Below, piece after piece: positions 1-34,356 of a DNA stretch of 37,064 nucleotides (the stretch's first letter is position 1; every line of letters starts with the position of its first letter). Source of the DNA: Oscillospiraceae bacterium (GTDB taxonomy: Bacteria > Bacillota > Clostridia > Oscillospirales > Ruminococcaceae). The translations under genes were made by a program, and so were the position numbers. The notes under the pieces are model-generated. The model made no database searches. It saw nothing but the letters and a program-made list of their open reading frames with translations, and was not told the DNA's origin. The DNA lies in NCBI GenBank assembly GCA_024699425.1, contig JAILPP010000142.1, forward strand, positions 1 to 37,064, in the 5' to 3' direction.

Positions 1-21
1 TCAATCATTGGAGGTGGTCGA

Positions 22-1218: not shown

Positions 1219-1251
1219 ATCAAAAACAAACACAGAGAGGTGGAACAATAA

Positions 1252-3030: not shown

Positions 3031-3044
3031 GGGGGTAGATGACA

Positions 3045-3848
3045 ATGAAGAATATGAGTTACAGAGATAAAATGATTATTTTGATCATTTCTATCATCGT
3101 TATTCTGGTAGCAGGTTTCTTTGCACTGATCAAGCCGGCGTATGACAAGCTTGTAGCGGATCAGGCGACCTACGAATCCACCAAGACAGAGTGGGACGGA
3201 ATCCAGCAGAAGCTGCAAGCGATTCCCGAACTGAAGAGTCGGATCGAGAATACATATAATGAAGCCAAGAAGGATGCAGCCGTTCTGGAGAACACCGCAT
3301 TCGGCGACATCAACAAGGACTATGACAGAAAGAAAGTCAACTATGGTCTTGACCAGTATCTGCATCAGGCAATTGACGACAACAACCTTGACATCACGGC
3401 ATTTGCGATCGGCGATGCAGGTGAGATCCAGATCAAGTATTCCTACTACAAGCCCAACGTTGTGACTTATGCCCTGCTTGAAAGCGGCGATGTCAACGGC
3501 AACTATGCTGAGGAAGTAGCAAAGCTGATCGAGACAGGCACAGTCGTTGAAGAGAAGGAAATCGCATCGATCATGGCAAACAATGTCAATATGTCTCTGG
3601 TTGGAACAAAGGAAGATCTGATGAACTTCCTGGACACCATTCAGGCAGACAACAATGCGATCAACGTAGACGCAGTAGACATTGCAAACTACACCTTTGA
3701 GGACGAAGAGGAAGAAGGACAGCCTGCAAGACCGGCAAGACCTGCACCGACAGCAGAAGGTGAAGAGCCGGGCGGCACATCTGAGATGACACTCGACCTC
3801 AAGTTCTACAACGCAAAGACCATGGATAAGCCTGATCTGGGTGATTAA
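3045..3848 (+). CDS. PilO-like type IV pilus alignment-complex protein
   Basis: Bitopic protein with a short cytoplasmic N-terminus (MKNMSYRDK), one membrane helix (IILIISIIVILVAGFFALI), a helical segment with Lys/Glu heptads (YESTKTEWDGIQQKLQAIPELKSRIENTYNEAKKD) and a C-terminal alpha/beta part. This is the layout of PilO, which pairs with PilN outside the membrane. The ORF track begins at 3039, but the ATG at 3045 sits 9 bases from the GGGGG Shine-Dalgarno at 3031-3035 while 3039 would leave only 3, so I place the start at 3045 (267 residues). A charged Glu-rich/Pro-rich segment (DEEEEEGQPARPARPAPTAEGEEPG) interrupts the C-terminal domain. Position directly after pilM/N supports the call more strongly than sequence alone. 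Confidence 0.8.
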   Translation: MKNMSYRDKMIILIISIIVILVAGFFALIKPAYDKLVADQATYESTKTEWDGIQQKLQAIPELKSRIENTYNEAKKDAAVLENTAFGDINKDYDRKKVNYGLDQYLHQAIDDNNLDITAFAIGDAGEIQIKYSYYKPNVVTYALLESGDVNGNYAEEVAKLIETGTVVEEKEIASIMANNVNMSLVGTKEDLMNFLDTIQADNNAINVDAVDIANYTFEDEEEEGQPARPARPAPTAEGEEPGGTSEMTLDLKFYNAKTMDKPDLGD

Positions 3849-3899
3849 GAACAGCAAGAAGCAACAAACCCCTGACAGTAATAGAGAAAGGTGGTAAAG

Positions 3900-6431: not shown

Positions 6432-6449
6432 TGAGAGGAGTGCTTTTTG

Positions 6450-6836
6450 ATGAAATTGCAGAAACATAAGAAACGTTCCAAGTCCGTCAAGGGCATGACT
6501 CTGATTGAGATCATCATTGCAATCTTTGTACTTGGCGTTATGGGTGTCATCATGTGCAGAGTGGCGACTGTTTCGGGAAATCTGATGAAAGCGGCGAACC
6601 ACACGGAAAAGAGAACGGCGGTTGAGGCTCCCCTCGCCGCCGCCCGGACACAGGAAGGACACTACGAAGCCGAAAAGAAGAAAGCGGATGTAGAAGTCAA
6701 GATCACAGGCACATTCGACGAAGTAACGCTGAAAGCCGACAAGTATACCACCAAGAAGAAAGGTGACAACGAAGGCGATCCGGCGAAAACGCAGAATAAT
6801 GCAGATCTGGTCTACTACACGAACATTCATAGCTGA
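6450..6836 (+). CDS. Type IV prepilin-like protein (small, PilV/PulG type)
   Basis: A 128-residue prepilin. The basic leader MKLQKHKKRSKSVKG is followed by the class III signal G|MTLIEIIIAIFVLGVMGVIMC, with Glu at +5 of the mature protein and a hydrophobic helix that would be cleaved by the prepilin peptidase encoded at 7843-8718. The remaining ~85 residues are very Lys/Glu/Thr rich and short, so this may be a minor pilin. The ORF track start (TTG 6447) is one codon too early; ATG 6450 lies 9 bases from a GAGAGGAG Shine-Dalgarno. The gene starts 18 bases after the upstream surface protein and is followed 24 bases later by another prepilin gene, consistent with one operon. Confidence 0.88.
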   Translation: MKLQKHKKRSKSVKGMTLIEIIIAIFVLGVMGVIMCRVATVSGNLMKAANHTEKRTAVEAPLAAARTQEGHYEAEKKKADVEVKITGTFDEVTLKADKYTTKKKGDNEGDPAKTQNNADLVYYTNIHS

Positions 6837-6860
6837 TTCAGGCTGCAAGGAGGCTGAAAA

Positions 6861-7787
6861 ATGAGAAAAAGGGTTAAGGGTTTCACCTTGATCGAGCTGA
6901 TCGTAGTATTGGCGATCTTCTCAATAGTAATGGTTGCAGCGACATCCCTGATGCAGCCTGTATCGAAGATCATGGTCACAACGGACGTGAATGATACGGG
7001 CAACAGCAATGTATCCCAGATCTCCAAATATCTGGAGCTGAGTCTGGGACCTGCGGAGTACATCCGGCTGGCGCAGTTCGTACCGGATCAGACACAGCGT
7101 GATGCTATGGTCAAGGATTTCGTAGACACCTGCTATTCGGGAATCCTGTACAAGGGTTCTAATACGACCAATCAGGTTTATGCCAATGCGACCATTCATG
7201 TAATGACGATCGACAATGCACACGGCGGCAAGATTTCTGAGTATATCTACGAGTGCAATCTGGAACCGGGACAGACACCGGTTGAAAAGCCGGCACTCTC
7301 CAGGGAATACGCAGTCAACAAGGCGCTGTATGACAATTACGCATACACGATCTATCCGGGTGTATCGAAGTACGCGCCGGAGGGAACTTATGATGTCAAG
7401 GATTTCATGAGGGACTCACATGATGTGTATCACACCAGTTTCTCGATTGATGCAGAGACGACCCGTTACAGAGGCAGACCCAATCAGATGACAGTGAACT
7501 TTTCCGGTACAGCGACGGTAGTGCTGTCCAACATCAACGCACCCACCGAGTACAGACCGAACGGTGTTCCGGTCAGTGCATACTTTGTTTATGATGCAGC
7601 ATCGGGGGCGATCATGGATAAGTCTCAGGTACAGCCCACCCCGCTTCAGGGCGTGGAGTTTACCGGTCCTGACAATACTGTCAGCTACTGGGGAAGCACC
7701 TGCTCAACAATTCAGGAGATCAAGGACGGCGGCTTATGCTTCGTATACGCCTACGGTCCGGAAATCGTAACAGGTCCGAAGACCTGA
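6861..7787 (+). CDS. Type IV prepilin-like protein (large, minor-pilin type)
   Basis: 308 residues beginning MRKRVKGFTLIELIVVLAIFSIVMVAATSLMQP, a textbook type III prepilin signal: short basic leader, cleavage after Gly, Phe+1, Glu+5, ~20-residue hydrophobic helix. The globular part (~270 residues) is larger than a typical major pilin and contains segments such as YRGRPNQMTVNFSGTATVVLSNI that look like beta strands, so a minor or tip pilin is more likely than the main subunit. SD AAGGAGG is 7-8 bases upstream. It is the last gene of the first pilus operon and is followed by a strong bidirectional terminator at 7800-7838. No obvious major pilin was found in the window, so it may lie upstream. 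Confidence 0.88.
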   Translation: MRKRVKGFTLIELIVVLAIFSIVMVAATSLMQPVSKIMVTTDVNDTGNSNVSQISKYLELSLGPAEYIRLAQFVPDQTQRDAMVKDFVDTCYSGILYKGSNTTNQVYANATIHVMTIDNAHGGKISEYIYECNLEPGQTPVEKPALSREYAVNKALYDNYAYTIYPGVSKYAPEGTYDVKDFMRDSHDVYHTSFSIDAETTRYRGRPNQMTVNFSGTATVVLSNINAPTEYRPNGVPVSAYFVYDAASGAIMDKSQVQPTPLQGVEFTGPDNTVSYWGSTCSTIQEIKDGGLCFVYAYGPEIVTGPKT

Positions 7788-7799
7788 TGCAAAGAAAAT

Positions 7800-7838
7800 C
7801 GGCAGTCGGTAGATTGCACTCCGGCTGCCGAAATTTTT
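7800..7838. terminator. Bidirectional rho-independent terminator between convergent pilin and prepilin peptidase genes
   Basis: Stem CGGCAGTCGG / CCGGCTGCCG (one G-U pair) with an 11-base loop. It is followed by AAATTTTT on the + strand and preceded by AAAGAAAAT, which gives a U-rich tail on the - strand. It separates the convergent ends at 7787 and 7843. Confidence 0.8.
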
Positions 7839-7842
7839 CAGG

Positions 7843-8718
7843 TCAAGCGGCTGTGGGGTCGTAAGTGAGAATTGTTATGTACCAGTCCATAAGGGGCTCA
7901 CCGCAGAGCGCCCCGACAAACAGCCCGACTGCGAGGTAGGGACCGAAAGCGAATTTGGATTCGCCGCTTCGGAACTTATTGATCATTCCGAAGACCGCAG
8001 CGAGCAGAATACCGACGAAGGCAGCCATCAGAGCGCCTTTCCACCCGATCAGAAGACCGCCGGCAGCCATAATCAGGGTATCACCGAGTTCAATGCCGCG
8101 GCGGATCTCATCAGACCCGCTTCTTTTGCGGATGACTGCGCCGCTGATCTCACCGATGAGGAAGAACGGGATGCTGACACAGACCAGACCGATCAGGTGA
8201 TCTACGAGGGAGACATCTTCAAAGCTGAGAAAATCGGGAAGATTTGACGGCTGAACGATAGAGAAGATCAGCAGCGGTACAGCGAGGACAACGATCGCAC
8301 CGAGCAGCCGCAGGTCCATTTCCATAGTATCCCAATCCATGAATCCGAGGCAGATGAGCAGCGAGAAGAACAGGCAGTACAGCACAGATTTCAGATTGAA
8401 GTCCATAATTGCGATGGTCACCACATAAATGATCCCGTTGAGCGCTTCTACAATAGGGTAGCGGGGAGAGATTTTCTCACCGCAGTTCCGGCATTTTCCG
8501 TGCAGGATAAAGACCCAGCTCACGATGGGAATAATATCAATGACACGGATCTTCGCACCGCAGGTAGTGCAGTGGGAAGCCCGTTTTACGAGCGATTCAT
8601 TTCTTGGCAGCCGATAGATCACGACATTCAGAAAGCTGCCGATACAGATCCCATAGAAAAAAACGATGGGGAAGAACATGATGTAAAAACCAATGTCCAA
8701 GTATTCATTGTGTAGCAT
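7843..8718 (-). CDS. pilD: Prepilin peptidase / leader peptidase (A24 family)
   Basis: Membrane aspartyl protease that removes prepilin leaders, and in many homologues N-methylates the new terminus. The N-terminal domain matches the family: SFLNVVIYRLPRNESLVKRASHC followed by two zinc-type Cys pairs (CTTC and CRNC) within about 30 residues. About seven hydrophobic segments follow. The first catalytic Asp is likely in FMDWDTMEMDL and the second in IELGDTLIMAAGGLLIG, where the usual GxGD reads ELGD. The ORF track start (8763) is 15 codons too long: ATG at 8718 has AGGAGGC 7 bases upstream, giving 291 residues. It is on the strand opposite to all other pilus genes and has its own promoter. It should process the two prepilins at 6450 and 6861. 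Confidence 0.92.
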   Translation of the reverse strand: MLHNEYLDIGFYIMFFPIVFFYGICIGSFLNVVIYRLPRNESLVKRASHCTTCGAKIRVIDIIPIVSWVFILHGKCRNCGEKISPRYPIVEALNGIIYVVTIAIMDFNLKSVLYCLFFSLLICLGFMDWDTMEMDLRLLGAIVVLAVPLLIFSIVQPSNLPDFLSFEDVSLVDHLIGLVCVSIPFFLIGEISGAVIRKRSGSDEIRRGIELGDTLIMAAGGLLIGWKGALMAAFVGILLAAVFGMINKFRSGESKFAFGPYLAVGLFVGALCGEPLMDWYITILTYDPTAA

Positions 8719-8749
8719 GATGTATGCCTCCTTAATCGATAATACATAT

Positions 8750-8778
8750 ATTATACCATACAAAGGTATATTTTACAA
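8750..8778 (-). promoter_or_regulatory. Sigma-A-type promoter for the prepilin peptidase gene
   Basis: On the minus strand TTGTAA (8778-8773), 17 bases, TATAAT (8755-8750). The start would be ~30 bases upstream of ATG 8718. The 93-base gap also has to hold the start signals for pilB on the other strand; I see AT-rich sequence but no clear -35 for pilB. Confidence 0.55.
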
Positions 8779-8811
8779 GTAGCAATATTAAAAAAGTATG
8801 GAGGTTATCGT

Positions 8812-10491
8812 ATGAGAAACATTCGTATTGGTGATTACCTTGTGGAGCAAAGGCTCATCACAGCCGAGCAGCTGGATCAGGTTCTGGCGAAGCAGAAGGA
8901 ATCACAGGGGAACAAGCGTTTTGGAGAAATGGTCGTTGAACTCGGATTCATCTCCGAGATCAATCTGGCGAAGGCACTTGCAGCAAAGCTGCGTGTTCCC
9001 TATGTAGATCTGGGCAATCAGGAGATCGACGAGGATGCCGTCCGCAAGATTCCGGAGAGTCTGGCGAAGAAGCATACAGTTATCGCGATTAACATTCAGG
9101 GTCGCCGACTGACAGTTGCAACAGACGACCCGATCAACTTCAATATTCTGGAAGATATCAAGATGCAGACCGGTATGGACACCATCCCGGTACTGGCGAC
9201 GAGATCCGCCATCAACAAGGCAATTGGTCAGCACTACTCCATGGAGAACGTAGACTCCGTACTGGAGAGTGTACAGCAGTTCCGCAACGATGACGATGCC
9301 GATGATGATTCCAAGGAGCGTATTGAGAGTGCGCCTATCGTAAAACTGGCGACCACGATCATCGAGAACTCCTACCGTGCAGACGCAACGGATATTCATA
9401 TCGAGCCGTTCAAGACCTACACAGTCATCCGTGTCCGTGTCAACGGCGACCTGGTAGAACTGATGAAGGTATCCAACGTAGTACACAACGCCCTGACGAC
9501 CCGTCTGAAGCTGATTTCCGGCATGAACATCGCCGAGAAGCGTATCCCGCAGGACGGACGTTTCACGCAGACCGTAGACGGCACGGTACTTGATGTCCGT
9601 GTATCCTCGCTGCCGACGGTCAACGGTGAGAAGATCGTTATCCGTATCCTGTCCACCGGTAACATTGCGCTGCGTAAGATCACCGACCTTGGTATGTCTG
9701 ACTACAACTATCAGCTTTTCGAGTCCATGATCAAGTGCCCGCACGGAGTTATTCTGGTAACAGGACCTACCGGTTCCGGTAAGACCACGACACTGTATGC
9801 AGCGCTGGGCGAACTGGCGAAGCCGCACGTAAATGTTATCACCGTTGAGGATCCTGTCGAGAAGGCGATCGACGGTATCAATCAGGTACAGGTAAATGCG
9901 AAGGCAGGTATGACATTCGCAGCCGCACTGAGATCCATCCTCCGTCAGGACCCGGATATTGTCATGATCGGTGAGATGCGTGACTCTGAGACAGCGGACA
10001 TCGGTATCCGTGCCGCTATCACAGGTCACTTGGTTCTGTCCACCCTGCATACCAACGATGCAGCATCCACAATTGTCCGTCTGGTAGATATGGGCGTAGC
10101 GCCGTACATGGTAGCGACCTCGCTGATCGGCGTTATCGCACAGCGACTTGTCAAGGTACTCTGCCCGAAGTGCAAGCAGCAGAGAATGTCCACCAAGGAA
10201 GAGAACGCGCTGATGAAACTCGCCGATCTCGACACCCCGATCCCGGTATACGAGCATCAGGGCTGCCCGGAGTGCAACAACACGGGATACCGCGGCCGTA
10301 CTGCAATTCACGAGATCATTCACTGTACAGCAGGCATCTCAACAATCGTAGCACGCAACGGCTCCAAGGAAGAGATCGAAGAGAAGGCAAAGGAGAACGG
10401 CACCAAGCTGCTGCGTGACAACGTATCCGAGCTGGTACAGAAGGGTGTCACCTCCATGGACGAGCTGGTTCGTGTAACCTACGCAGTATAA
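8812..10491 (+). CDS. pilB: Type IV pilus extension ATPase PilB (GspE family)
   Basis: Cytoplasmic hexameric ATPase that powers pilus assembly through PilC. The 559 residues comprise: a GspE/PilB N-terminal domain (residues ~1-150; IGDYLVEQRLITAEQLDQVLAKQ), a linker rich in Asp (NDDDADDDSKER), the N2 domain (ATDIHIEPF), Walker A GPTGSGKTTT at ~318-327, an Asp box with TVEDPVE, Walker B DIVMIGEMRD, and a His box with LSTLHTND. A zinc-binding tetracysteine typical of assembly rather than retraction ATPases follows: CPKC at ~451 and CPEC at ~485. The start has GGAGG 7 bases upstream. It is divergent from the peptidase gene and is followed 69 bases later by pilT. Confidence 0.96.
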   Translation: MRNIRIGDYLVEQRLITAEQLDQVLAKQKESQGNKRFGEMVVELGFISEINLAKALAAKLRVPYVDLGNQEIDEDAVRKIPESLAKKHTVIAINIQGRRLTVATDDPINFNILEDIKMQTGMDTIPVLATRSAINKAIGQHYSMENVDSVLESVQQFRNDDDADDDSKERIESAPIVKLATTIIENSYRADATDIHIEPFKTYTVIRVRVNGDLVELMKVSNVVHNALTTRLKLISGMNIAEKRIPQDGRFTQTVDGTVLDVRVSSLPTVNGEKIVIRILSTGNIALRKITDLGMSDYNYQLFESMIKCPHGVILVTGPTGSGKTTTLYAALGELAKPHVNVITVEDPVEKAIDGINQVQVNAKAGMTFAAALRSILRQDPDIVMIGEMRDSETADIGIRAAITGHLVLSTLHTNDAASTIVRLVDMGVAPYMVATSLIGVIAQRLVKVLCPKCKQQRMSTKEENALMKLADLDTPIPVYEHQGCPECNNTGYRGRTAIHEIIHCTAGISTIVARNGSKEEIEEKAKENGTKLLRDNVSELVQKGVTSMDELVRVTYAV

Positions 10492-10560
10492 CAGCAATGA
10501 TCGGCGGTACGCTGCCGGGAGAAAGGCGTACAAACTACATAATGTTTGGAGGATACAACA

Positions 10561-11631
10561 ATGGGAATTGAAATCAACCGCATCCTGAACGAAGCCCGAG
10601 CGATCGGCTGTTCTGACCTGCACTTCACCTATGGCATCAATCCGATCGTCCGTCTGAACGGTGCGCTCCGCAAGATGACGAAATACCCGGAGCTTGACGA
10701 AGAGGAGATCATGGACATTGTCAACCAGATGACAAACGAGCAGCAGATGGCGAGTGTTCGTCAGCACAAGGACACCGACTTCTCCTTCCAGACGAATTCC
10801 GGATATCGTCACCGTGTCAACGTATTTTTCCAGAGAGGCAAGACGGCAATTGCGATCCGTCTGCTTCGCAACGATATTCCGACGCTGGACGATCTGCATC
10901 TGCCGCCTGTTCTGGCAGATTTTGCGATGCGTCCCCGTGGACTGGTGCTGGTAACAGGTCCTACAGGTTCGGGCAAATCGACGACACTTGCGGGCATGAT
11001 CGACTACATCAACGTACACAGAAGTGCGCACGTTATCACGATTGAAGACCCGATCGAGTATGTACACACGCACAAGCTCTGCATGGTAAACCAGCGTGAA
11101 GTCGGAGACGACGTACCTGACTTTGCAATGGCGCTGCGTGCAGCGCTCCGTGAAGATCCGGACGTAATCCTCGTAGGTGAGATGCGTGACTTTGAGACGA
11201 TCGGTGCAGCGGTAACGGCAGCCGAGACAGGACACTTGGTGCTGTCCACCCTGCATACAACGTCCGCAGCGGACACCATCAACCGTATCATCGACGTATA
11301 TCCGGAGCATCAGCAGGGACAGATCAGAACGCAGTTGTCGAACAACCTTGTCGGCGTTATCTCGCAGACACTTCTGCCGAGACTTGACGGCAAGGGACGT
11401 GAAGCGTGCATGGAGATCCTGAACGTAACCGATGCCTGCGCCGCAATGATCCGTGACGACAAGGTACACCTGCTGCTGTCTGCGATCCAGTCCGGTAAGC
11501 AGTACGGCATGATGTGTCTCGATCAGGAGCTGGCACGTTATGTAAAGCGTGGAGTTGTATCCGAGAGTGCGGCACTGGAGAAGTGCCAGTCGAAGTCGGA
11601 GTTCTACCGTTTCCTGAACGGTGCAGCCTGA
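10561..11631 (+). CDS. pilT: Type IV pilus retraction ATPase PilT
   Basis: 356-residue hexameric ATPase that depolymerises pili and drives retraction (twitching, DNA uptake in characterised systems). It lacks the long N-terminal domain and the zinc tetracysteine seen in the neighbouring PilB. It has the PilT hallmarks: CSDLHFTYGINPIVRLNG near the N-terminus, Walker A GPTGSGKST at ~133, ITIEDPIEYVH, Walker B DVILVGEMRD, and LVLSTLHTTSAADTINRIID. The track start (TTG 10546) overlaps the GGAGG Shine-Dalgarno at 10548-10552, so ATG 10561 is the start. A very strong terminator follows directly, ending the locus. The presence of both PilB and PilT predicts retractable pili. Confidence 0.95.
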   Translation: MGIEINRILNEARAIGCSDLHFTYGINPIVRLNGALRKMTKYPELDEEEIMDIVNQMTNEQQMASVRQHKDTDFSFQTNSGYRHRVNVFFQRGKTAIAIRLLRNDIPTLDDLHLPPVLADFAMRPRGLVLVTGPTGSGKSTTLAGMIDYINVHRSAHVITIEDPIEYVHTHKLCMVNQREVGDDVPDFAMALRAALREDPDVILVGEMRDFETIGAAVTAAETGHLVLSTLHTTSAADTINRIIDVYPEHQQGQIRTQLSNNLVGVISQTLLPRLDGKGREACMEILNVTDACAAMIRDDKVHLLLSAIQSGKQYGMMCLDQELARYVKRGVVSESAALEKCQSKSEFYRFLNGAA

Positions 11632-14354: not shown

Positions 14355-16475
14355 ATGAAGAAGAGCAATTTCACCAAGAAGATCGTAACCGCAGCCGCAG
14401 CAGCAGTGATGTGTGCAGCGATTCCGGCGATCACCATTTCCGCAGCGCAGACGCTTGCGGGTGACGTGAATCTGGACGGGACAGTCAGTGTATCCGATCT
14501 TGTCGCATTCACGAAATATCTCCACGGCAAAGCCCCGCTTGAGCAGCAGGCGCTGGAGAATGCCGACATGGATCAGGACGGAAGCAATGATGTCTTTGAT
14601 CTGGGACTCATGAAGAAAACGGTACTCAGCGGTGCAGAGCAGACACCGACGGAAGAGCAGCCGACCGATGCACCGACGGAAGAGCAGCCGACCGATGCAC
14701 CGACAGAAGCAGGCGTAGCCGCAGCGATCACGTTTGAAGGCACGAATGTCACGCTTGCGGATGCAGAGGGCAACGCGCTTGCAAGTGCATCGAATGTAAC
14801 GGTGGACGGCGCATATGTGACGATCACCGCAGCAGGCACTTACACGATCACAGGTAAGAGTGATGAGGGTCAGATCAAAGTCAGCACGGACAATGCAGCA
14901 GATCCGACGGCAGTAGTTGAGCTGAGTCTGGAAGGGCTTACGCTGTCCAATTCCACCGCAGCGCCGATCTACATTGAAAACGTAGGCGATGAAGCAGTGA
15001 TCTCTGTGAAGAAGGGGACAGAGAATGTCATTTCGGACGGCAGCACGCACACAGACAGCTATGTCAACAGTGACGGAGAGACGAAACTCTGTGCAGCAGC
15101 GATCTATGCCCGTGATGATCTGAAGATCAAGGGCAAGGGAACGCTGAAAGTCAACGGCAATGCAGAAGACGGCATTGTATCCACCAACGACCTCAAGATC
15201 TGGAACGGTACAGTAGAAGTTACCGCAGCGGATGACGGTATCCGTGCAGATTCGATCAAGATCGGTGATCCTGACGATGCAGTATCGGCAGGCGGCAAGG
15301 GTTACGAAAATCTGATTGTCACCGTAAACACGAACAACGGCACAACAGGCGGCGATGGCATCAAGGCAAGTTCCGAGACAGAGGGCAAGGGTTTTGTGAC
15401 GATCAACGGCGGTACAGTGACGATCAATTCCTATGCAGACGGCATCCAGGCAGAGCAGCTCTTCACGATGAATGACGGCGATCTGACGATCACGACCTAT
15501 CAGGGCAGCGGCTTCACATCGGGCAGCACATCGACAGGCACCACAAATCCGTGGGGCGGCGGAAGCGGCGGCATGGGCATGGACGGCAATGCCAACAAGA
15601 CCGACATATCCGCAAAGGGCATCAAGGCAGTAGGTCTGTATGATGCAGCAGGTACAACATGGCAGTCCGCAGGTGACATTGTTGTCAACGGCGGAAATAT
15701 CACAGTAGATTCTTCGGATGATTCTCTGCACTGCGGCGGCAGCATGAGCATTCTGGGCGGTGTATTCACAATTGCGTCGGCAGACGACGGATTCCACTCC
15801 GACCACGAGCTGACCATCGGCACCAAGGGCGCAGGGACATATGATGACGTACAGATCAACGTTACCAAGTGCTATGAAGGTGTTGAGGGTGTGACCATCA
15901 ACCAGAATTCGGGTTCTGTCTATATCGTATCGGGTGATGACGGTTACAATGCGGCAGGCGGCAATGACGGCAGCGGCAGCGGCAACACCAACCCGTGGGG
16001 CGGTGGCAGCATGAGCAGTTCTACGGGAACGCTGAACATTAACGGCGGACTGGTCGTCGTAAACTCTGCCAACGGCGACCATGATTCGATCGACTCCAAC
16101 GGTGATCTGAACCTGAACGGCGGTTATGTATATGCCAACGGGCAGGAGCCGTTTGACTGCGGAGACGGTGGTTATTCCATCAACTACAACGGCGGCAGTG
16201 TGATCACGATGACCGCAGGCAACACGAATCTGAATGCACGTTACAGCTTCACCGATGCATCGGGCAATGTAATCGTATCGTTTATCGGTGCATCCGGCAA
16301 TCCGGGTCAGAACTGCACGAACTGCACAGCCCAGTCCGGCGGCACAGTAGCAGGCGGCACGGAGATCTGCGGCGGCAAGGTAACCGTAGGCGGTACACTT
16401 TCGGGAGCGACACAGATCACAGCATCGTCGTCCTCCGGCAGTATGCAGCCCGGCGGTCCCGGCAGCAGATGGTAA
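14355..16475 (+). CDS. Secreted N-terminal dockerin plus carbohydrate-binding-type beta-helix protein (DUF4353-like)
   Basis: 706 residues; SD AAGGGG 8 bases upstream. Signal peptide (KKIVTAAAAAVMCAAIPAITISAAQ). An N-terminal dockerin follows directly at ~residues 35-95: GDVNLDGTVSVSDLVAFTKYLHG and ADMDQDGSNDVFDLGLMKKTVL, two calcium loops with F-helices. A linker with the unit PTEEQPTDA repeated comes next. The remaining ~570 residues are strand-turn repeats rich in Asn/Gly/Asp (GTLKVNGNAEDGIVSTNDLKIWNGTVEVTAADDGIRADSIKIG), as in DUF4353 'carbohydrate-binding domain-containing' proteins, probably a right-handed beta-helix. Two Gly-rich inserts share TNPWGGGS. Two CxxC-like cysteines occur in QNCTNCTAQ near the C-terminus. 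Dockerins are mostly C-terminal, so the N-terminal position is notable. It probably docks to a scaffold as non-catalytic or binding cargo; no catalytic motif identified. Confidence 0.82.
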   Translation: MKKSNFTKKIVTAAAAAVMCAAIPAITISAAQTLAGDVNLDGTVSVSDLVAFTKYLHGKAPLEQQALENADMDQDGSNDVFDLGLMKKTVLSGAEQTPTEEQPTDAPTEEQPTDAPTEAGVAAAITFEGTNVTLADAEGNALASASNVTVDGAYVTITAAGTYTITGKSDEGQIKVSTDNAADPTAVVELSLEGLTLSNSTAAPIYIENVGDEAVISVKKGTENVISDGSTHTDSYVNSDGETKLCAAAIYARDDLKIKGKGTLKVNGNAEDGIVSTNDLKIWNGTVEVTAADDGIRADSIKIGDPDDAVSAGGKGYENLIVTVNTNNGTTGGDGIKASSETEGKGFVTINGGTVTINSYADGIQAEQLFTMNDGDLTITTYQGSGFTSGSTSTGTTNPWGGGSGGMGMDGNANKTDISAKGIKAVGLYDAAGTTWQSAGDIVVNGGNITVDSSDDSLHCGGSMSILGGVFTIASADDGFHSDHELTIGTKGAGTYDDVQINVTKCYEGVEGVTINQNSGSVYIVSGDDGYNAAGGNDGSGSGNTNPWGGGSMSSSTGTLNINGGLVVVNSANGDHDSIDSNGDLNLNGGYVYANGQEPFDCGDGGYSINYNGGSVITMTAGNTNLNARYSFTDASGNVIVSFIGASGNPGQNCTNCTAQSGGTVAGGTEICGGKVTVGGTLSGATQITASSSSGSMQPGGPGSRW

Positions 16476-16550: not shown

Positions 16551-16568
16551 AGCAATTTGTGGTATAAT
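16540..16568 (+). promoter_or_regulatory. Sigma-A-type promoter for the LRR-dockerin/M20/GH25/HD-GYP operon
   Basis: TTTACT (16540-16545; 4 of 6), 17 bases, TATAAT (16563-16568). The -35 overlaps the tail of the preceding terminator. Start predicted ~16575, 27 bases before ATG 16602. Confidence 0.6.
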
Positions 16569-16601
16569 AGATACATCACTTATGTCGGAGGGAGAATTCT
16601 T

Positions 16602-17579
16602 ATGTTCAAGTCAAATCGGGTAATTATTGAGATAATGCTATGTGTAGGACTACTAACGATAGGAGATCATGTAATCACATCAAATGCAGAAGTAGATTTG
16701 AAAGCTACTGCTGTAGGTATTATTGAATCCTCTGCTTTTGGCAAAAATATGGAGTGGTCTTTAGACGATGAAGGAACATTAACAATTGATGGAACAGGCG
16801 CAATGAAATTTAGTGTTAATGGTACCTTTACCACTACTAATGTTCCATGGTATAATGAACGAGAAAAGATAAAATCGGTTATTATCAAAAATGGGATAAC
16901 AAATATCGGATGTTACGCTTTTGGATATTGTGAAAATTTAGCTACCGTTGATATTCCGGATAGTGTAACCACAATAGAAAGATTAGCTTTTTACAATTGT
17001 ACTAACTTAACCTCTATAACAATTCCAGATACCGTGACAACTATTGAGAAGTATTCATTTATAGGATGTGCAAATTTGAATTCTATTACTATTCCATATA
17101 GTGTAACGGAGGTGGATGAGGCAGCTTTTAGTGATTGTGTAAATTTGAGTACCGTTAAAATTTTAAATCCAGAGTGTGGAATTTATGACAGTCATCGCAC
17201 ATTTTGCAATGAGGCTGATGGGGGTGGAAACGCATATTTTACTGGCACTATTTATGGTTATGCAGGAAGTAGCGCTGAAAGATATGCTCAAAGGTATAAT
17301 CGTAAATTTGAGATTATAGGGAGTCAACCTGTTGTTACTCCTTATTCTATGGGAGATCCTAATGGTGACGGTATTATTAATGCAAGAGATGCCACCATGG
17401 TTTTGATTGTAGCTGCAAAATCTGGTACAGGCACGGGGAACACGCTGACTGATAAGCAGTTCATTGCTGCTGATGTTAACAGAGATAATATTGTTAATTC
17501 TAAAGATGCAACATTAATTTTACGCTATACCGTAGCAGCGGGAGTAGGACAGGATATTACAATCGAAGAAATGGCTTGA
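16602..17579 (+). CDS. Secreted BspA-type leucine-rich-repeat protein with C-terminal dockerin
   Basis: 325 residues from ATG 16602 (GGAGGGA 8 bases upstream; the track's 16557 start is inside the promoter). A signal peptide (MFKSNRVIIEIMLCVGLLTIG...) is followed by an extracellular domain with EWSLDDEGTLTIDGTGAM, typical of BspA proteins. Tandem ~23-residue LRR_5 repeats follow (IPDSVTTIERLAFYNCTNLTSITIPDTVTTIEKYSFIGCANLNSITIP). The C-terminal dockerin is GDPNGDGIINARDATMVLIVAA...AADVNRDNIVNSKDATLILRYTVAAG. The coding sequence is clearly AT-rich (TTA, AAT, GAT, ATT codons) compared with the GC-rich genes on either side, which suggests recent acquisition or low expression. It is the first gene of an operon; the M20 gene starts 16 bases downstream. 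Likely docked adhesion or binding cargo. Confidence 0.85.
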   Translation: MFKSNRVIIEIMLCVGLLTIGDHVITSNAEVDLKATAVGIIESSAFGKNMEWSLDDEGTLTIDGTGAMKFSVNGTFTTTNVPWYNEREKIKSVIIKNGITNIGCYAFGYCENLATVDIPDSVTTIERLAFYNCTNLTSITIPDTVTTIEKYSFIGCANLNSITIPYSVTEVDEAAFSDCVNLSTVKILNPECGIYDSHRTFCNEADGGGNAYFTGTIYGYAGSSAERYAQRYNRKFEIIGSQPVVTPYSMGDPNGDGIINARDATMVLIVAAKSGTGTGNTLTDKQFIAADVNRDNIVNSKDATLILRYTVAAGVGQDITIEEMA

Positions 17580-27431: not shown

Positions 27432-27462
27432 AGATGCCCCGCTTGGGGCATCTCTTTTTTTA
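27432..27462. terminator. Bidirectional terminator between gltX and the papain-like/dockerin gene
   Basis: AGATGCCCC / GGGGCATCT with loop GCTT, A run on the left and TCTTTTTTT on the right, functioning in both directions for converging genes. Confidence 0.92.
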
Positions 27463-30252
27463 TCAGATGAAATCCGCAATTTTTACAGTGCTGTCATTTG
27501 CATAGGCTGCTGCATAACGGAATACTGCGGTTGCATCGGCGGCGTTGGTTTTGCTGTCGCCGTTGACATCGGCTGCCTTCCGCTGTACCTCTGTCAGTCC
27601 GCCTGTCGGATCACCGCTGCCGATGTGTGCGGCTGCAATCAGAATCTGTGTGCCGTCACGGGAGTCTACTTTGCCGTCACCGTTGACATCGCCAAGAATA
27701 TACCCATCACCGGGGGTTTCCTGAGAACCTGTGTCGCTCTCGGTCGGATTCTGGGGGGTTGTCTCTACTACGTCACTGTCGGGCAGTTCTTCCAGATACA
27801 GTGCGCATTCAACCGATTCTTTGCCCTCCTCGGTCACTGTCATCGGAATGGATTCGGTGTAGCCTGCAAGATCAAGTGTGATCGTCTCGCCTGATTTGCA
27901 CGGCTTGCCGCCGATCGTGATGCTGCCTGTGGAGATCGGAGTCAGCGATACCGTCTTGGAACCCTTCGGGAGATAGTATACATAGTTGGGATTGTTCACA
28001 TCTGTTTCGTCCGGATTATGGTCTGCATAGCGGGATACGGCATCCTTGTCCGTCTTGCAGAGTAGGCTCGAAACCGAAGCCGTTTCGGTGGCGTATGCCT
28101 GCGTCATGATGTGCTTGTCATCACTCAGCGAGATGATCGAAAGATCAACATAGGCGGAAAGAATCATCAGGTCTTCCCCTTCCGGCATGGTGATCGGCTT
28201 TTCATCATCGTAAAGCTCCCAGTTCACACCGTCCAGTGTGTAGTAGATCGGTGCCTGATCGTCACAGGAAAGATGAATGCTCTCACCCTTCTTCATGACT
28301 GTGCTGTTGTTGGAAAATACAACAGTTCCGCAGTCACGGGTCACTGCTTTCAGACAGATGTTGCCGCAGCGGGAAATAACGTCAAACTGCGATCCGTCAA
28401 TCGTGCCGACTTCTTCGCTGCTCTCGGCAGGCGCTGCTGCATCGGCAGAGGCAGTTTCAGTCGGGTCTTCGGTCATATCTCCCTCTGCCATTGCATATGC
28501 AGCTTCCTCTACGGAAATGACAGGGGGTTCTGTTGCATCATACCTGGTTTCCATCGGCATCGGAAGATCCGTGTCCGCAGGTGTTGCTTCGGGCAGCGCG
28601 GTGGCTTGTTCTGCGGTCGGCAGCAGCATCGGAACAGTTTCTGTCTCCGTTGCGGAAGGTACTGCTTCACCGGCATCTGTCGGCGGGATAAATGTCGGGA
28701 TCTGTGCGGCTGTGCTGCTGCTCTCTGTCTCCAAAGCGTCGGTCACGTTGACTGTGTCGCCGGACTCCGGATCGTATTCGATCGGATTATCTACGGCGGC
28801 GGACCACTTCTCAGGCTCTACATTGTACATATCTACCCACACAGATCCGTCTGTGCTGTAGAAACTCTGCCCCGTGCGGAGACTGCTCTCCAGCATATCC
28901 ATTGTGAATGTGGAGTCAAATACTTCCTTTGTGCCGTTTGATCCGGTGGAGATGGAACGGGAGGCGTATTCACACGGAATGCGTGCGCCTGCTGCTTCAC
29001 CGCTGACCTTCGCTGTGACGGAGAAAGAATCACCTTTCTTCAGGAATACCGGCTCGTCCAGTTCGATCGTCAGATAACCTGTCTCGTCCAGAACTACTTT
29101 CTTCGCACCTGCCGCTGTGCCCGAAACAGGATTGTCATTGCTGGTCAGCCCTGTGTAAACAGTGGCATCAAATGTGTCGCCGCTGTACATATTGTAGAAC
29201 ATGATGCCCGTGAGCCAGCCGTTTTCTTCGGCGGTGAATACGTTGGCAATCATGATCTCCTTTTCCGGCTCTTCTTCGTTGACAAGATATGCGCCGTTCC
29301 AGCCGTATTCGTCGTGCTGGTACAGACGGTTGTTCAGATTGGCACTCTCGGCACGGTACTCGGTGATGCCGTTGATGGTAGCATCTGCATAGGATACCCA
29401 GATGTATCCGTTGTCACCGTATGCGGTGCCGCTGCTGCACTTGCACAGCCATGCTCCGTCCATGGGAGGATTGCTCTTGAAAGACGCTGCCGGAATGCTG
29501 TCATCCCAGCCGACAATTGTCATATAACGCCAGTCGGGCATGGCTTCTGCATCGGCGGTGTTCCATGTCTCAAAATCATAGCAGTAGGTGTATTTCTCTG
29601 CATCATAGCACGAGGCACTGTACAGGACACGCATCGCCAGCGCATGGTCAGCATAGATACGCTCCTTGACGGCATTGATCTGCTTGCTCAGTGATTCCTG
29701 AAGAAAGTTGTCATCGTAGTCATACGGCTGGTAAGGATAGCTCACTGCATCGGTGACATGAAAGTCTGCTCCGCTTCGCATCTGTGCTGCGGAAATGTTC
29801 CAGTCCATAATGGAAACATCACCGTAACTGTAGGAGGTATAGCTGTTCGTAGAGCCGAGCCAGCTTGCCAGCAATCCTGTGATCTGGTCAAAATCCTGAA
29901 TGTCTTCGTTGAACGGAACGTCCTTGTCGTATTTGTAGCCGAAATTGTTCGAGAACATACAGTATGCCATGTTCCATTCCGAAATATTCGCATTCGGATC
30001 GGTTTTCAGCAGAGAGCTTTCCATACTGTCGGCTGCGGCAAATGCCCACGACGTATTATACTGCATTTCATCACCAACTTCGGTGACAAGTCCCTTGCTG
30101 CGCAGATCATAGCTTGCAGGCAGACCTGCTGTCTCGGAGATCGTTGTCTCATCAGATACGCCAGGATCTGCCTGTACAGCGGATACCGGCACGGACGCTG
30201 CTGCAAGAACTATGCTCAGACACAGGGCGGCTGTTCGTTTGAAACGCTTCAT
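27463..30252 (-). CDS. Secreted papain-like (C1A) protein with inactive-looking active site and C-terminal dockerin
   Basis: 929 residues. Signal peptide (MKRFKRTAALCLSIVLAAASVPVSA); SD AAAGGAGA. Residues ~43-300 align by eye with clostridial C1A papain-like domains (LPASYDLRSKGLVTEV; TIVGWDDSIP; GDNGYIWVSYAD), but the catalytic Cys is Ser68 (YNTSWAFAA), the His is Arg242 (DWRYMTIVGWDD) and the Asn is Cys272 (WLCKCSSGT). A 'lectin-like' C1-associated domain follows (NVFTAEENGWLTGIMFYNMYSGDTFDATVYTG). Then a long Thr/Glu/Pro/Ala-rich linker, a beta-rich module with GTVVFSNNSTVMKKGESIHLSCDDQAPIYYTLDG, and a dockerin (GDVNGDGKVDSRDGTQILIAAA...AADVNGDSKTNAADATAVFRYAAA) at ~850-925. Secreted, scaffold-docked, probably binding rather than cutting peptides. 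Pseudoenzyme status is inferred from sequence. Confidence 0.88.
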   Translation of the reverse strand: MKRFKRTAALCLSIVLAAASVPVSAVQADPGVSDETTISETAGLPASYDLRSKGLVTEVGDEMQYNTSWAFAAADSMESSLLKTDPNANISEWNMAYCMFSNNFGYKYDKDVPFNEDIQDFDQITGLLASWLGSTNSYTSYSYGDVSIMDWNISAAQMRSGADFHVTDAVSYPYQPYDYDDNFLQESLSKQINAVKERIYADHALAMRVLYSASCYDAEKYTYCYDFETWNTADAEAMPDWRYMTIVGWDDSIPAASFKSNPPMDGAWLCKCSSGTAYGDNGYIWVSYADATINGITEYRAESANLNNRLYQHDEYGWNGAYLVNEEEPEKEIMIANVFTAEENGWLTGIMFYNMYSGDTFDATVYTGLTSNDNPVSGTAAGAKKVVLDETGYLTIELDEPVFLKKGDSFSVTAKVSGEAAGARIPCEYASRSISTGSNGTKEVFDSTFTMDMLESSLRTGQSFYSTDGSVWVDMYNVEPEKWSAAVDNPIEYDPESGDTVNVTDALETESSSTAAQIPTFIPPTDAGEAVPSATETETVPMLLPTAEQATALPEATPADTDLPMPMETRYDATEPPVISVEEAAYAMAEGDMTEDPTETASADAAAPAESSEEVGTIDGSQFDVISRCGNICLKAVTRDCGTVVFSNNSTVMKKGESIHLSCDDQAPIYYTLDGVNWELYDDEKPITMPEGEDLMILSAYVDLSIISLSDDKHIMTQAYATETASVSSLLCKTDKDAVSRYADHNPDETDVNNPNYVYYLPKGSKTVSLTPISTGSITIGGKPCKSGETITLDLAGYTESIPMTVTEEGKESVECALYLEELPDSDVVETTPQNPTESDTGSQETPGDGYILGDVNGDGKVDSRDGTQILIAAAHIGSGDPTGGLTEVQRKAADVNGDSKTNAADATAVFRYAAAYANDSTVKIADFI

Positions 30253-30597: not shown

Positions 30598-30626
30598 TTG
30601 ACATTCGCACGGCAAAATGATATAAT
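30598..30626 (+). promoter_or_regulatory. Consensus sigma-A promoter for the ten-repeat protein
   Basis: TTGACA (30598-30603), 17 bases, TATAAT (30621-30626): a perfect match. Predicted start ~30633 with a ~75-base leader. Confidence 0.9.
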
Positions 30627-30708
30627 ATAAGATATGAATCACACCCACATCGTGCTTCGCTTTGGATGTCTATTCACTTTCATTTATCAGGAAGAGAGGA
30701 ATTTGGTT

Positions 30709-33700
30709 ATGAAGAGAGGAAACAAAAACCGGATGATTGCCGGCGTTTTTGCCGTCCTTTTCGTGCTGAGTACTGCGGTGACAAGTGTGACCGCTTTTGC
30801 AGAGGAAGAGGTCAAGGTTCCGGCACTCAGTGAGGTCACTGCACAGACCGCAGGCAGCGGCTTCGATACGCTCCTCGGAGATTCGATCGTTCCGATCGGC
30901 GGAAATGTTACTACACTCGATAACAGCTTCCTTGATGCTGTTACGATGCAGAACTCATTCACAATGCCCGAATCTATTGCGGCGGGTCAGACAGTTCAGA
31001 TCTACGGACGCGTTGAGTCCGGTACATCTGCTCTTACTTCCGTGTCGGTGGCGGTTTATCAGGTAAACAACACCGCAGTCGCAGTTCAGGGCAAGGCTGT
31101 TGTTCCCAACAGCAACGCTTTTGACATCAGCTCCCTCAGCAACGAGATCAATTTTGCTGCACTTCCCGCTGACAGCTACTACTTCGTGGTAATGGCTTCC
31201 AACGCTTCTTACCGCAATACCGCCCTGATGGTCAAGAGATTTACCGTCGTTGGCGGTGCTTCTGCTACCGATGGTCTCGGCATCAGTAATCCTGCTCAGG
31301 TGCCCTCTGTCATCAATCAGGGTACTTCCCTCAATGTTACCGGTATCGTCAGCTCCTCGATCAGCCCGCTGACCCGTGTCGTTGCTGCCGTTTATGATAC
31401 AAACGGCAACGCTCAGACCGGCGGTCAGGCAAATAATATCAATGCCACAACTTATGACGTGAGCCGCCTCGCTCCCTATGTACAGTTCAATAAGCTTGGC
31501 GCAGGCTCTTATGTTTATCGCGTATCCGCTTCCAATTCGACGGAAACTGACAAGATCGTACAGGAAGCCCGCTTCACCGTTTCCGGCAGCGGCGGTATCA
31601 CTCCGATCGTTTCCAACGATGCTCTGACCGGCAATATCGCTGCGATTCCGTCTGTGCTTACACAAGGCTCACAGGTGACAATCTCCGGTACCGTAAATTC
31701 CGGGTATTCTGCCCTGACTTATGTCAGCGCTGCTGTTTATGATGCTTACGGCAACCTTAAGTTCGGTCAGGCGGATGCACCCCATACCACTACCTATAAC
31801 ATCGGCACACTCGCTCCGTACCTGAACTTCGCTTCCCTCGGTGCGGGTACTTACAGATATGTTGTCACCGCTACCAACGGCGCTAATTCCAATGTCACAC
31901 TCGCTGACCAGACCTTTACCGTTCAGGCAAATACTCAGGTTCAGACAACCGATACCATCGGCGTTACCGGCGTTACAATCATGCCGTCCAGCATCAGAGT
32001 CGGTCAGCCCGTCAGTGTCCGCGGTACCGTAAGCTCTGCGTATTCCAACCTGACCAAGGTTGCTGTGGAAGTGTATGACTCTTACGGCAATTTCAAGACC
32101 GGTAAGACTGTCAGCGTCAATGCCAGAACTTATAACCTCTATAACCTCGACAGGTATGTGTACTTCGACAGACTGACGGACGGCGCTTATGAGTTCCGTG
32201 TGACCTGCTCTAATGGTTCTCTCACCGATTTCATTGTGAGCAGCCAGAAGTTTGCAGTCGGCACAGGTACGGTTACTCCCAACAATGTCGATTCTGCCAC
32301 CGACAGACTCTATCTGACCAATGTATTCAAGATGCCCGCAAGCATCAGCCGCGGTCAGATCGTCAATGTCACCGGTACGGTCAGCTCGGCTTCTACCAAT
32401 CTGGTCAGCGTTGGCGTGAATGTTTATAATTCCGCTAACAAGATCGTGACAGGTTCTACTGTTAATCCCAGAAGCAAGAGCTTCGATCTGAGAAACCTCG
32501 ATAAGTCGGTTTCCTTCAATACACTGCCCGATGGCGTTTATACTCTCGTAATTCACGGCTCCAACGGCACGAGAACCAATGAGATCCTTCTCCAGCAGCA
32601 GTTCACTGTCGGCACCGGCGGCGGTTCGGTAAGTGCAACGGATAGTATGTATATTTCCGGATTCGTTCCGATCGCTTCCGTTCGTCAGGCGGGTCAGGGC
32701 GTTGATGTTACCGGCGTGGTTACTTCTCCCGTAACAAATCTCTCTATGGTCGATGTCGGTATCTTCAATTCCGCAGGTCAGCGCCTCTACGGTCAGACCG
32801 TTTATCCGAATGCGAGAACCTATGACCTCAAGCTCCAGGACAACAGCCTCCGCTTTGATCTGCTCCCCGCAAATCAGGAGTATACCTTTAAGGTAACAGC
32901 TTCCAATGGTTCTGCTTCCAATGTCGTTCTGGCAACCCAGAGGTTCACCGTTACCACCAGCGCTGTGACTCCCGGTGTCAACTCCGATGCCATCACTGTT
33001 AGCGGTATTACCCAGATTCCTGACAATATTGCCGCAGGTACGCCCATCACGGTCAACGGTACGGTTACTTCCGCACAGTCCAATATCTACAGCCTCTATT
33101 GCGGCGTGTTCAACAGCGCAGGTCAGGCTATTACCGGCAGAACTGTCAACCCGAACAGCAGAACTTATAACCTCCATGCACTCGATCCGTACATTGAGTT
33201 CAATAAGCTCGCTAACGGTCAGACTTATACCTTCGCTGTCATCGCTTCTAATTCTTCCAATACCAACTATACTGTTTACAGCAAGAAGTTTACGGTCGGC
33301 TACGGCGGTACGACAACTCCCACAACTCCCACTACCGATACTATGACTATTTCCGGTGAGACACAGATCCCCGCTTCTATCGCTTATAAGCAGCCTGTCA
33401 GCGTGAAGGGCTACATCACTTCCGCTTATTCCAATATCACCAACGTTTCTGTCGGCGTTTACAATACCGCTAACCTCAACCAGATGGTGGTCGGTTCTGT
33501 CAAGAATGTCAACGCAAGAACGTATAACCTCTCTGCAATGGATTCTGAGGTTCGCTTCGATTTGCTGCCGCAGGGTTCCTATGTCTACGTTGTAAAGGCT
33601 ACCAATGCTTCCGGTACTTATACGCTCCAGAATAAGTCCTTTACAGTCGGCTATGGTACTTCTACCACAACTCCGTCTACACAGACCGGTACCGATCTGT

Positions 33701-34356
33701 ATGTGACCGGTGTTTCTACCGTGCCTTCTTCCCTCTCGGTAGGTGCAGTGTTCAGCGTTCGCGGTACTGTTACTTCGACTTCTTCCAATATCACCACACT
33801 TACCTGCGGTGTTTGGGATGTCAATACGCAGAAGTGGATGACCGGCGCTAACAGCGTGACTGTCAATGCCAAGACCTTCGATCTGAGCAGAGTCGATTCT
33901 CAGGTTCACTTCAACAGCCTGCCTGCCGGCAGCTACGTCTTCGGCGTTTACGCTTCCAATGCGACAAGATCCAATGTTACCCTCGTAAGCCAGCGCTTTA
34001 CAGTTGGCAGCGGCGGTTCTGTGACTCCGTCGGTATCCGGTGACAATATCACCTTCAACAATACCATGAGCCTCGGTTCTTCCATCAGACAGGGTTCTCC
34101 CGTGAGCGTTCGCGGTACGGTTTCTTCCGGCAGCTCTAACCTTACCAACGTTACAGTCGGTATCTACAATGCAAGCGGTGCAGGTCTGTATGTAAGTCCT
34201 GTCAACCCCGGCGCAAGATCTTACAACATCAGCGCAGTGGACAGCGCTATGCGCTTTGACCGCCTGAGCGCAGGTACCTATTATTTCCGTGTGACAGCTT
34301 CCAACGGCAGCACAAGCAATGTTCAGCTCGTCAACAAGAGCTTCACGGTTTATTGA
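30709..34356 (+). CDS. Secreted protein of ten tandem ~110-residue Ig-like repeats
   Basis: 1215 residues from ATG 30709 (GAGAGGA about 10 bases upstream; the track's earlier start precedes the SD). Signal peptide: MKRGNKNRMIAGVFAVLFVLSTAVTSVTAFAEE. From residue ~45 to the end there are ten consecutive repeats of about 105-118 residues. Pattern: D-x-(I/L)-x-(V/I)-x-G...P-x-S-I-x-x-G-x-x-(V/I)-x-(V/I)-x-G-T-V-x-S...V-x-V-(G/A)-V-Y-(N/D)...T-Y-(N/D)-L...F-(D/N)-x-L-x-x-G-x-Y-x-(F/Y)-x-V-x-A-S-N...F-T-V-G. These look like beta-sandwich domains, joined by short Gly/Thr/Pro linkers. I recall similar single repeats at the C-terminus of other clostridial secreted hydrolases, where they are not characterised. 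There is no LPXTG, SLH, dockerin or catalytic domain; the last repeat ends at the C-terminus. Strong promoter and codon choice suggest high expression. Function unknown. Confidence 0.85.
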   Translation: MKRGNKNRMIAGVFAVLFVLSTAVTSVTAFAEEEVKVPALSEVTAQTAGSGFDTLLGDSIVPIGGNVTTLDNSFLDAVTMQNSFTMPESIAAGQTVQIYGRVESGTSALTSVSVAVYQVNNTAVAVQGKAVVPNSNAFDISSLSNEINFAALPADSYYFVVMASNASYRNTALMVKRFTVVGGASATDGLGISNPAQVPSVINQGTSLNVTGIVSSSISPLTRVVAAVYDTNGNAQTGGQANNINATTYDVSRLAPYVQFNKLGAGSYVYRVSASNSTETDKIVQEARFTVSGSGGITPIVSNDALTGNIAAIPSVLTQGSQVTISGTVNSGYSALTYVSAAVYDAYGNLKFGQADAPHTTTYNIGTLAPYLNFASLGAGTYRYVVTATNGANSNVTLADQTFTVQANTQVQTTDTIGVTGVTIMPSSIRVGQPVSVRGTVSSAYSNLTKVAVEVYDSYGNFKTGKTVSVNARTYNLYNLDRYVYFDRLTDGAYEFRVTCSNGSLTDFIVSSQKFAVGTGTVTPNNVDSATDRLYLTNVFKMPASISRGQIVNVTGTVSSASTNLVSVGVNVYNSANKIVTGSTVNPRSKSFDLRNLDKSVSFNTLPDGVYTLVIHGSNGTRTNEILLQQQFTVGTGGGSVSATDSMYISGFVPIASVRQAGQGVDVTGVVTSPVTNLSMVDVGIFNSAGQRLYGQTVYPNARTYDLKLQDNSLRFDLLPANQEYTFKVTASNGSASNVVLATQRFTVTTSAVTPGVNSDAITVSGITQIPDNIAAGTPITVNGTVTSAQSNIYSLYCGVFNSAGQAITGRTVNPNSRTYNLHALDPYIEFNKLANGQTYTFAVIASNSSNTNYTVYSKKFTVGYGGTTTPTTPTTDTMTISGETQIPASIAYKQPVSVKGYITSAYSNITNVSVGVYNTANLNQMVVGSVKNVNARTYNLSAMDSEVRFDLLPQGSYVYVVKATNASGTYTLQNKSFTVGYGTSTTTPSTQTGTDLYVTGVSTVPSSLSVGAVFSVRGTVTSTSSNITTLTCGVWDVNTQKWMTGANSVTVNAKTFDLSRVDSQVHFNSLPAGSYVFGVYASNATRSNVTLVSQRFTVGSGGSVTPSVSGDNITFNNTMSLGSSIRQGSPVSVRGTVSSGSSNLTNVTVGIYNASGAGLYVSPVNPGARSYNISAVDSAMRFDRLSAGTYYFRVTASNGSTSNVQLVNKSFTVY

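Follow-up and report, generated by a model that had tools for sequence, protein, structure and literature searches.

Ruminococcal cellulosomes hold many dockerin proteins without action on sugars, whose roles are an open question; in Ruminococcus flavefaciens the docked set includes peptidase-like proteins, serpins and many unknowns (PMC2930009, PMC5301203). The window, a 37,064-nucleotide stretch of an Oscillospiraceae genome, encodes a dockerin-bearing, papain-like protein on its reverse strand, in which an earlier note had seen all three catalytic residues replaced. This raises the question of whether the protein is still an enzyme, a decaying copy of one, or a module kept for another task.

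Domain layout and fold

The gene, an ORF of 929 codons at 27463-30252, has no internal stop and shows normal codon-position G+C. Pfam searches with the 929-aa protein returned Peptidase_C1 (PF00112, 34.3 bits, cut-off 20.7), Lectin_like (PF18560, 88.4 bits) and Dockerin_1 (42.3 bits), all three exceeding the curated cut-offs, and a search of NCBIfam gave no match. From the N-terminus, all on the reverse strand, the protein consists of a signal peptide (approximately residues 1-29; 30166-30252), a papain-like C1A domain placed by Pfam, alignment, structure model and Foldseek (42-308; 29329-30129), the Lectin_like domain placed by Pfam (310-478; 28819-29325), a linker visibly rich in Thr, Glu and Pro (about residues 500-625; 28378-28755) and the dockerin (27514-27696), whose two Ca-binding loops, DVNGDGKVDSRD and DVNGDSKTNAAD, are both intact. 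A hairpin resembling a terminator, common to the convergent gltX gene, lies at 27432-27453.

The Lectin_like domain directly follows the C1A domain, an architecture of the type found in Cwp84 of Clostridioides difficile. AlphaFold2, run on the two-domain part with an alignment of 72 sequences (the window protein and its relatives), gave a model with a pLDDT of 94.4 and a pTM of 0.93. The best PDB match to this model in Foldseek was Cwp84 (4d59, E 4e-22), followed by cathepsins, and the list also includes the Ser-bearing silicatein. Cwp84 was likewise the nearest solved protein in a sequence profile search, so the papain fold is retained despite the losses, as the earlier note had supposed. By fold and descent the protein thus belongs to peptidase family C1A. 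Cwp84 (PDB 4ci7, 4d59) shares the core and fold of the window protein, carries Cys116, His262 and a propeptide, and is an active S-layer protease (PMC4089489); unlike the window protein, it is part of the S-layer and has no dockerin.

The signal peptide and the dockerin support the view that the protein is secreted and docked, and the same genome, 66% complete, has candidate partners for it: 67 dockerin matches stand beside seven cohesin matches, five of which fall in one 1655-aa frame, a cohesin-bearing scaffoldin. Elsewhere in the window, further dockerin matches are found on the forward strand at 14457-14627 (ORF 14355-16475) and 17352-17528 (ORF 16557-17579), and positions 1-11631 hold a cluster resembling type IV pilus and type II secretion systems, with prepilin-like N-termini, as read from the ORF sequences only.

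Active-site residues, relatives and selection

Site positions were assigned by alignment with 85 relatives from the genus, and the active site was compared through this alignment rather than through distances in the model. Ser68 (TCG, 30049-30051) occupies the position of the catalytic Cys, Arg242 (CGT, 29527-29529) that of the His and Cys272 (TGC, 29437-29439) that of the Asn, bearing out the three replacements proposed before, including the reading of the Ser codon. Two more losses accompany them: Glu62 (GAA, 30067-30069) is at the oxyanion Gln position and Ser274 (AGC, 29431-29433) is at the Trp of the NSWG motif. Active enzymes of family C1A have Cys, His, Asn and the oxyanion Gln; the window protein has none of these at the aligned positions, and we infer that it lacks proteolytic activity. 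An assembly artefact is ruled out by the five separate codons involved, the intact ORF with its normal codon-position composition and the occurrence of Ser at this position in seven further genes, which come from five other assemblies. A C1A profile used alone for annotation would label these altered proteins enzymes. In the same alignment Cwp84 (4d59/4ci7) reads KSSWG, with Ser at the canonical Asn position, and the Asn287 given in publications on Cwp84 appears to lie a few residues before this position, in ESNGAWL.

Every one of the 38 genomes examined for the genus has at least one relative, and most of these relatives carry the Cys/His/Asn set. An intact paralogue of the same architecture (L001; ICWSF, NYHS, KNSWG) is present in the genome of the window itself. 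Seven relatives (L012-L016, L041 and L042), 45-46% identical to the window protein over the two-domain part, are of a Ser type, with the motif YETSWAF ... HS ... KD[SC][RY]G; in these the Cys is replaced by Ser, the His is kept, the Asn is replaced by Asp and the Trp is lost. Three others have Gly as the nucleophile residue, as Gly/His/Asp in L019 (G037), which has the KDSRG motif seen in the Ser-type group, and as Gly/His/Asn in L020 (G036) and L021 (G034). Among the relatives read, all others keep Cys and His. At distant loci (other Clostridia, Eggerthellaceae, Bacteroidales and one archaeon) the Cys is kept wherever the Cys motif is readable, and no relative outside the genus was found at E <= 1e-70 among 398 genomes of the family. 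In a contig search the window protein by itself gave no relative, where an alignment of the Ser-type group succeeded as query.

The window protein is therefore not the lone case that it had first seemed. As for the conservation of its Ser/Arg/Cys set, the relatives have both the Cys-to-Ser change and the loss of Asn, but they read Ser/His/Asp, so the set as such is not conserved; His to Arg and Cys at the Asn site occur in the window sequence only. With its catalytic residues replaced, the fold retained and the Ser conserved in relatives, the protein answers the description of a papain-fold pseudoprotease, and on these alignments it stands at the extreme of a small family of altered C1A proteins. 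In a tree from all columns the window protein groups with the seven Ser-type relatives (support 97/95), and these eight group with the intact L017 and L018 (100/98). When the motif columns are left out, the group of window and Ser-type proteins is recovered with support of only 64/77, and a topology with the window outside the Ser type is not rejected (p-AU 0.47). A single origin of the Cys-to-Ser change is likely on this tree, from which alone the order of the residue changes is inferred. Since the Gly types stand apart, the nucleophile was lost at least twice, and probably three times.

The altered domain is kept by selection, as indicated by the low dN/dS of C1A in the closest Ser-type pairs (0.097 for L012/L013 and 0.069 for L041/L042, at dS of about 0.2-0.3), values which cover the Ser-type relatives, the window's own copy having no close relative for comparison. 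In intact pairs the C1A values are 0.05-0.20. The region ahead of the domain is also altered. In the window protein, about 24 residues separate the hydrophobic core of the signal peptide from the C1A domain, too few for a propeptide that plugs the cleft as in Cwp84. This spacer measures 9-27 residues in the eight Ser-type proteins, whereas the 68 intact relatives have a median of 48 (Mann-Whitney p 1e-5, from rows that are not independent), with 49 and 51 in the nearest of them, L017 and L018. A short pro-segment is expected once the domain need not be held inactive as a zymogen, and its loss is a separate sign of the presumed loss of proteolysis.

The adjoining repeat-protein gene

Divergent from the pseudoprotease gene, on the forward strand at 30709-34356, is a gene whose secreted product is built of ten Ig-like repeats, each about 112 aa long; it likely starts at the ATG at 30709 rather than at 30634. 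One repeat was modelled as an Ig-like sandwich (pLDDT 92), and a structure search with it gave generic beta-sandwich matches only. A homologue of this gene adjoins the Ser-type gene at L100, L101, L102, L105 and L106; with the window this makes 6/6 species, which share descent and are not six independent events. It is the only gene common to the neighbourhoods of the window protein and the Ser-type loci, a conserved neighbour that the earlier note had overlooked. Where longer flanks were read, it is absent beside nine intact or Gly-type loci, and the match coordinates of the other relatives in the genus place none of them beside a repeat gene. A second Ser-type copy in G019 and G020 (L103, L104) has no adjacent repeat-protein gene; this copy has its own 12/12 promoter, and its neighbour is a conserved ORF encoding about 336 aa. 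In G023 the repeat gene ends about 220 bases from the contig end, and since the order of a lipoprotein gene and the repeat gene is that of G022, the missing stretch may contain a Ser-type gene.

Proteins with such repeats are more widespread than the pair, occurring in 28/38 genomes of the genus, mostly without a Ser-type neighbour. In the tree of repeat proteins the adjacent members do not form a well-supported clade, so the tree does not show co-descent of the pair. The protein encoded at 30709-34356 and L149-L165 make up a family that extends across the genus; its members are secreted Ig-like proteins with multiple repeats, about 700-1800 aa long, and no dockerin or anchor was seen at their ends.

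In the window, both genes of the pair have predicted promoters. A TTGACT-17-TATAAT site with TG, matching at 11/12 positions, lies upstream of the pseudoprotease gene (30343-30315, reverse strand), in keeping with the strong promoter of its own described earlier, and TTGACA-17-TATAAT, also with TG, lies upstream of the repeat-protein gene (30598-30626, forward strand). Seven promoter-like sites with up to one mismatch are found in the window, compared with 0.30 expected by shuffling. The two near-consensus extended -10 promoters stand back to back in a single 380-base intergenic region, an arrangement which suggests abundant production of both secreted proteins. The genes are divergent in the window and at L105, with pseudoprotease promoter matches of 11/12 and 12/12, respectively; they are in tandem at L100, L101, L102 and L106, where the best match reaches 8-10 of 12. 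Two tandem loci examined have neither a coding-strand terminator between the genes nor a strong promoter of the pseudoprotease gene's own. Through divergent promoters or a tandem arrangement without a terminator, joint expression seems to be kept in either orientation.

Possible roles and known precedents

We consider it probable that the window protein is a papain-fold pseudoprotease that is secreted, is held on the cellulosome through its dockerin and acts by non-catalytic binding. Its ancestor would have been a Cwp84-like peptidase with C1A, lectin-like and dockerin domains, a type present in every genome of the genus examined. In one sub-lineage Cys would have changed to Ser and Asn to Asp, the pro-segment would have shortened, and the gene would have come to adjoin, and probably be co-expressed with, that of the secreted ten-repeat protein; the window copy would afterwards have lost His and Gln too. 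A protein or glycoprotein may be bound in the cleft, by the lectin-like domain or by both, and the dockerin would fix the pseudoprotease to a scaffoldin. For this ligand the neighbouring repeat protein is the foremost candidate, although a tentative one. Equally tentative is the proposal of a dedicated adaptor, in which the dead domain would bind the repeats of the co-expressed protein and the dockerin would lock this partner onto the cellulosome or the surface of the cell. If true, the adaptor would form with its partner a two-gene surface-assembly module derived from a Cwp84-type peptidase. With a dead-protease lineage and its conserved neighbour gene, the docked proteins without action on sugars gain a concrete candidate binding pair, and there may be adaptors among the docked "peptidases".

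Non-catalytic binding by the pseudoprotease has to be weighed against four other accounts. The papain domain could be a mere structural spacer, the lectin-like domain doing the work by binding glycans. The greater identity of the relatives to the window in the lectin-like domain (46-53%, versus 40-45% in C1A) is consistent with this, but purifying selection clearly acts on the C1A domain of the Ser-type pairs as well and sugar binding by the lectin-like domain is unproven even in Cwp84 (PMC4089489), and we regard the spacer as unlikely. Quite doubtful is a decoy function, by which the protein would trap protease inhibitors or compete with intact paralogues for their substrate, thereby protecting or tuning docked peptidases. 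Such a paralogue does exist in L001, and ruminococci are known to have dockerin-borne serpins (PMC2930009, PMC5301203); however, no inhibitor gene was seen adjoining the pseudoprotease gene, and a decoy leaves the conserved repeat-protein neighbour unexplained. Of the earlier proposal of a binding or inhibitor-trapping module, non-enzymatic cargo stands as the best reading, but inhibitor trapping gained no support.

Decay of the window gene, in a lineage no longer needing it, would account for the additional losses of His, Gln and Trp and for the long end branch of the window, which is 1.1 in C1A versus 0.67 in the lectin domain and fits relaxed or changed selection. It is nevertheless improbable for a gene with 929 codons free of stops and of normal codon-position composition, a near-consensus promoter, a terminator, an intact dockerin and a retained neighbour gene. 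Least credible is a Ser-type serine hydrolase on the papain fold (Ser-His-Asp) with the window copy as a later decayed member. The pattern is attractive, as Ser, His and Asp stand at exactly the three positions in 7/7 Ser-type relatives. Against it, the oxyanion Gln has become Lys in L012/L013 and Glu in the window copy, every member has lost the Trp, the window copy is without His and Asp altogether, SERA5 with Ser was shown to be inactive (PMC4671257), and the apparently independent L019 has KDSRG with Gly as nucleophile, so that Asp and Arg there are no signal of catalysis.

The window protein, read as a docked pseudoprotease, is no new kind of system: eukaryotes are known to have papain-fold pseudoproteases in SERA5, silicatein and SMIPP-C, and it is the dockerin-borne bacterial set that appears to be new, no dockerin-borne C1A pseudoprotease having been found in searches of open-access papers. 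Silicatein is a sponge biosilica protein that keeps His and Asn. Like the window protein, it has a papain fold with Ser at the Cys site (PDB 6zq3). By analogy, the closest functional precedent is SERA5 of Plasmodium, which has Ser at the catalytic Cys and no protease activity, fills a required role and can bind peptides (PMC4671257). It differs in coming from a eukaryotic parasite, in having the nucleophile alone changed as far as reported, in its other extra domains and in having no dockerin. The SMIPP-C proteins of scabies mites form a multicopy family in which the cysteine proteases have been catalytically inactivated (PMC5956821); these are eukaryotic mite gut proteins, also without a dockerin. 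In R. flavefaciens, the papain-like NlpC/P60 modules of RflaF_05439 are dockerin-borne and without detectable activity, and one copy, in strain 17, has Cys replaced by Ser (PMC3573020). They differ from the window protein in belonging to the NlpC/P60 superfamily instead of combining C1A with a lectin-like domain, and in carrying an X-dockerin that binds ScaE.
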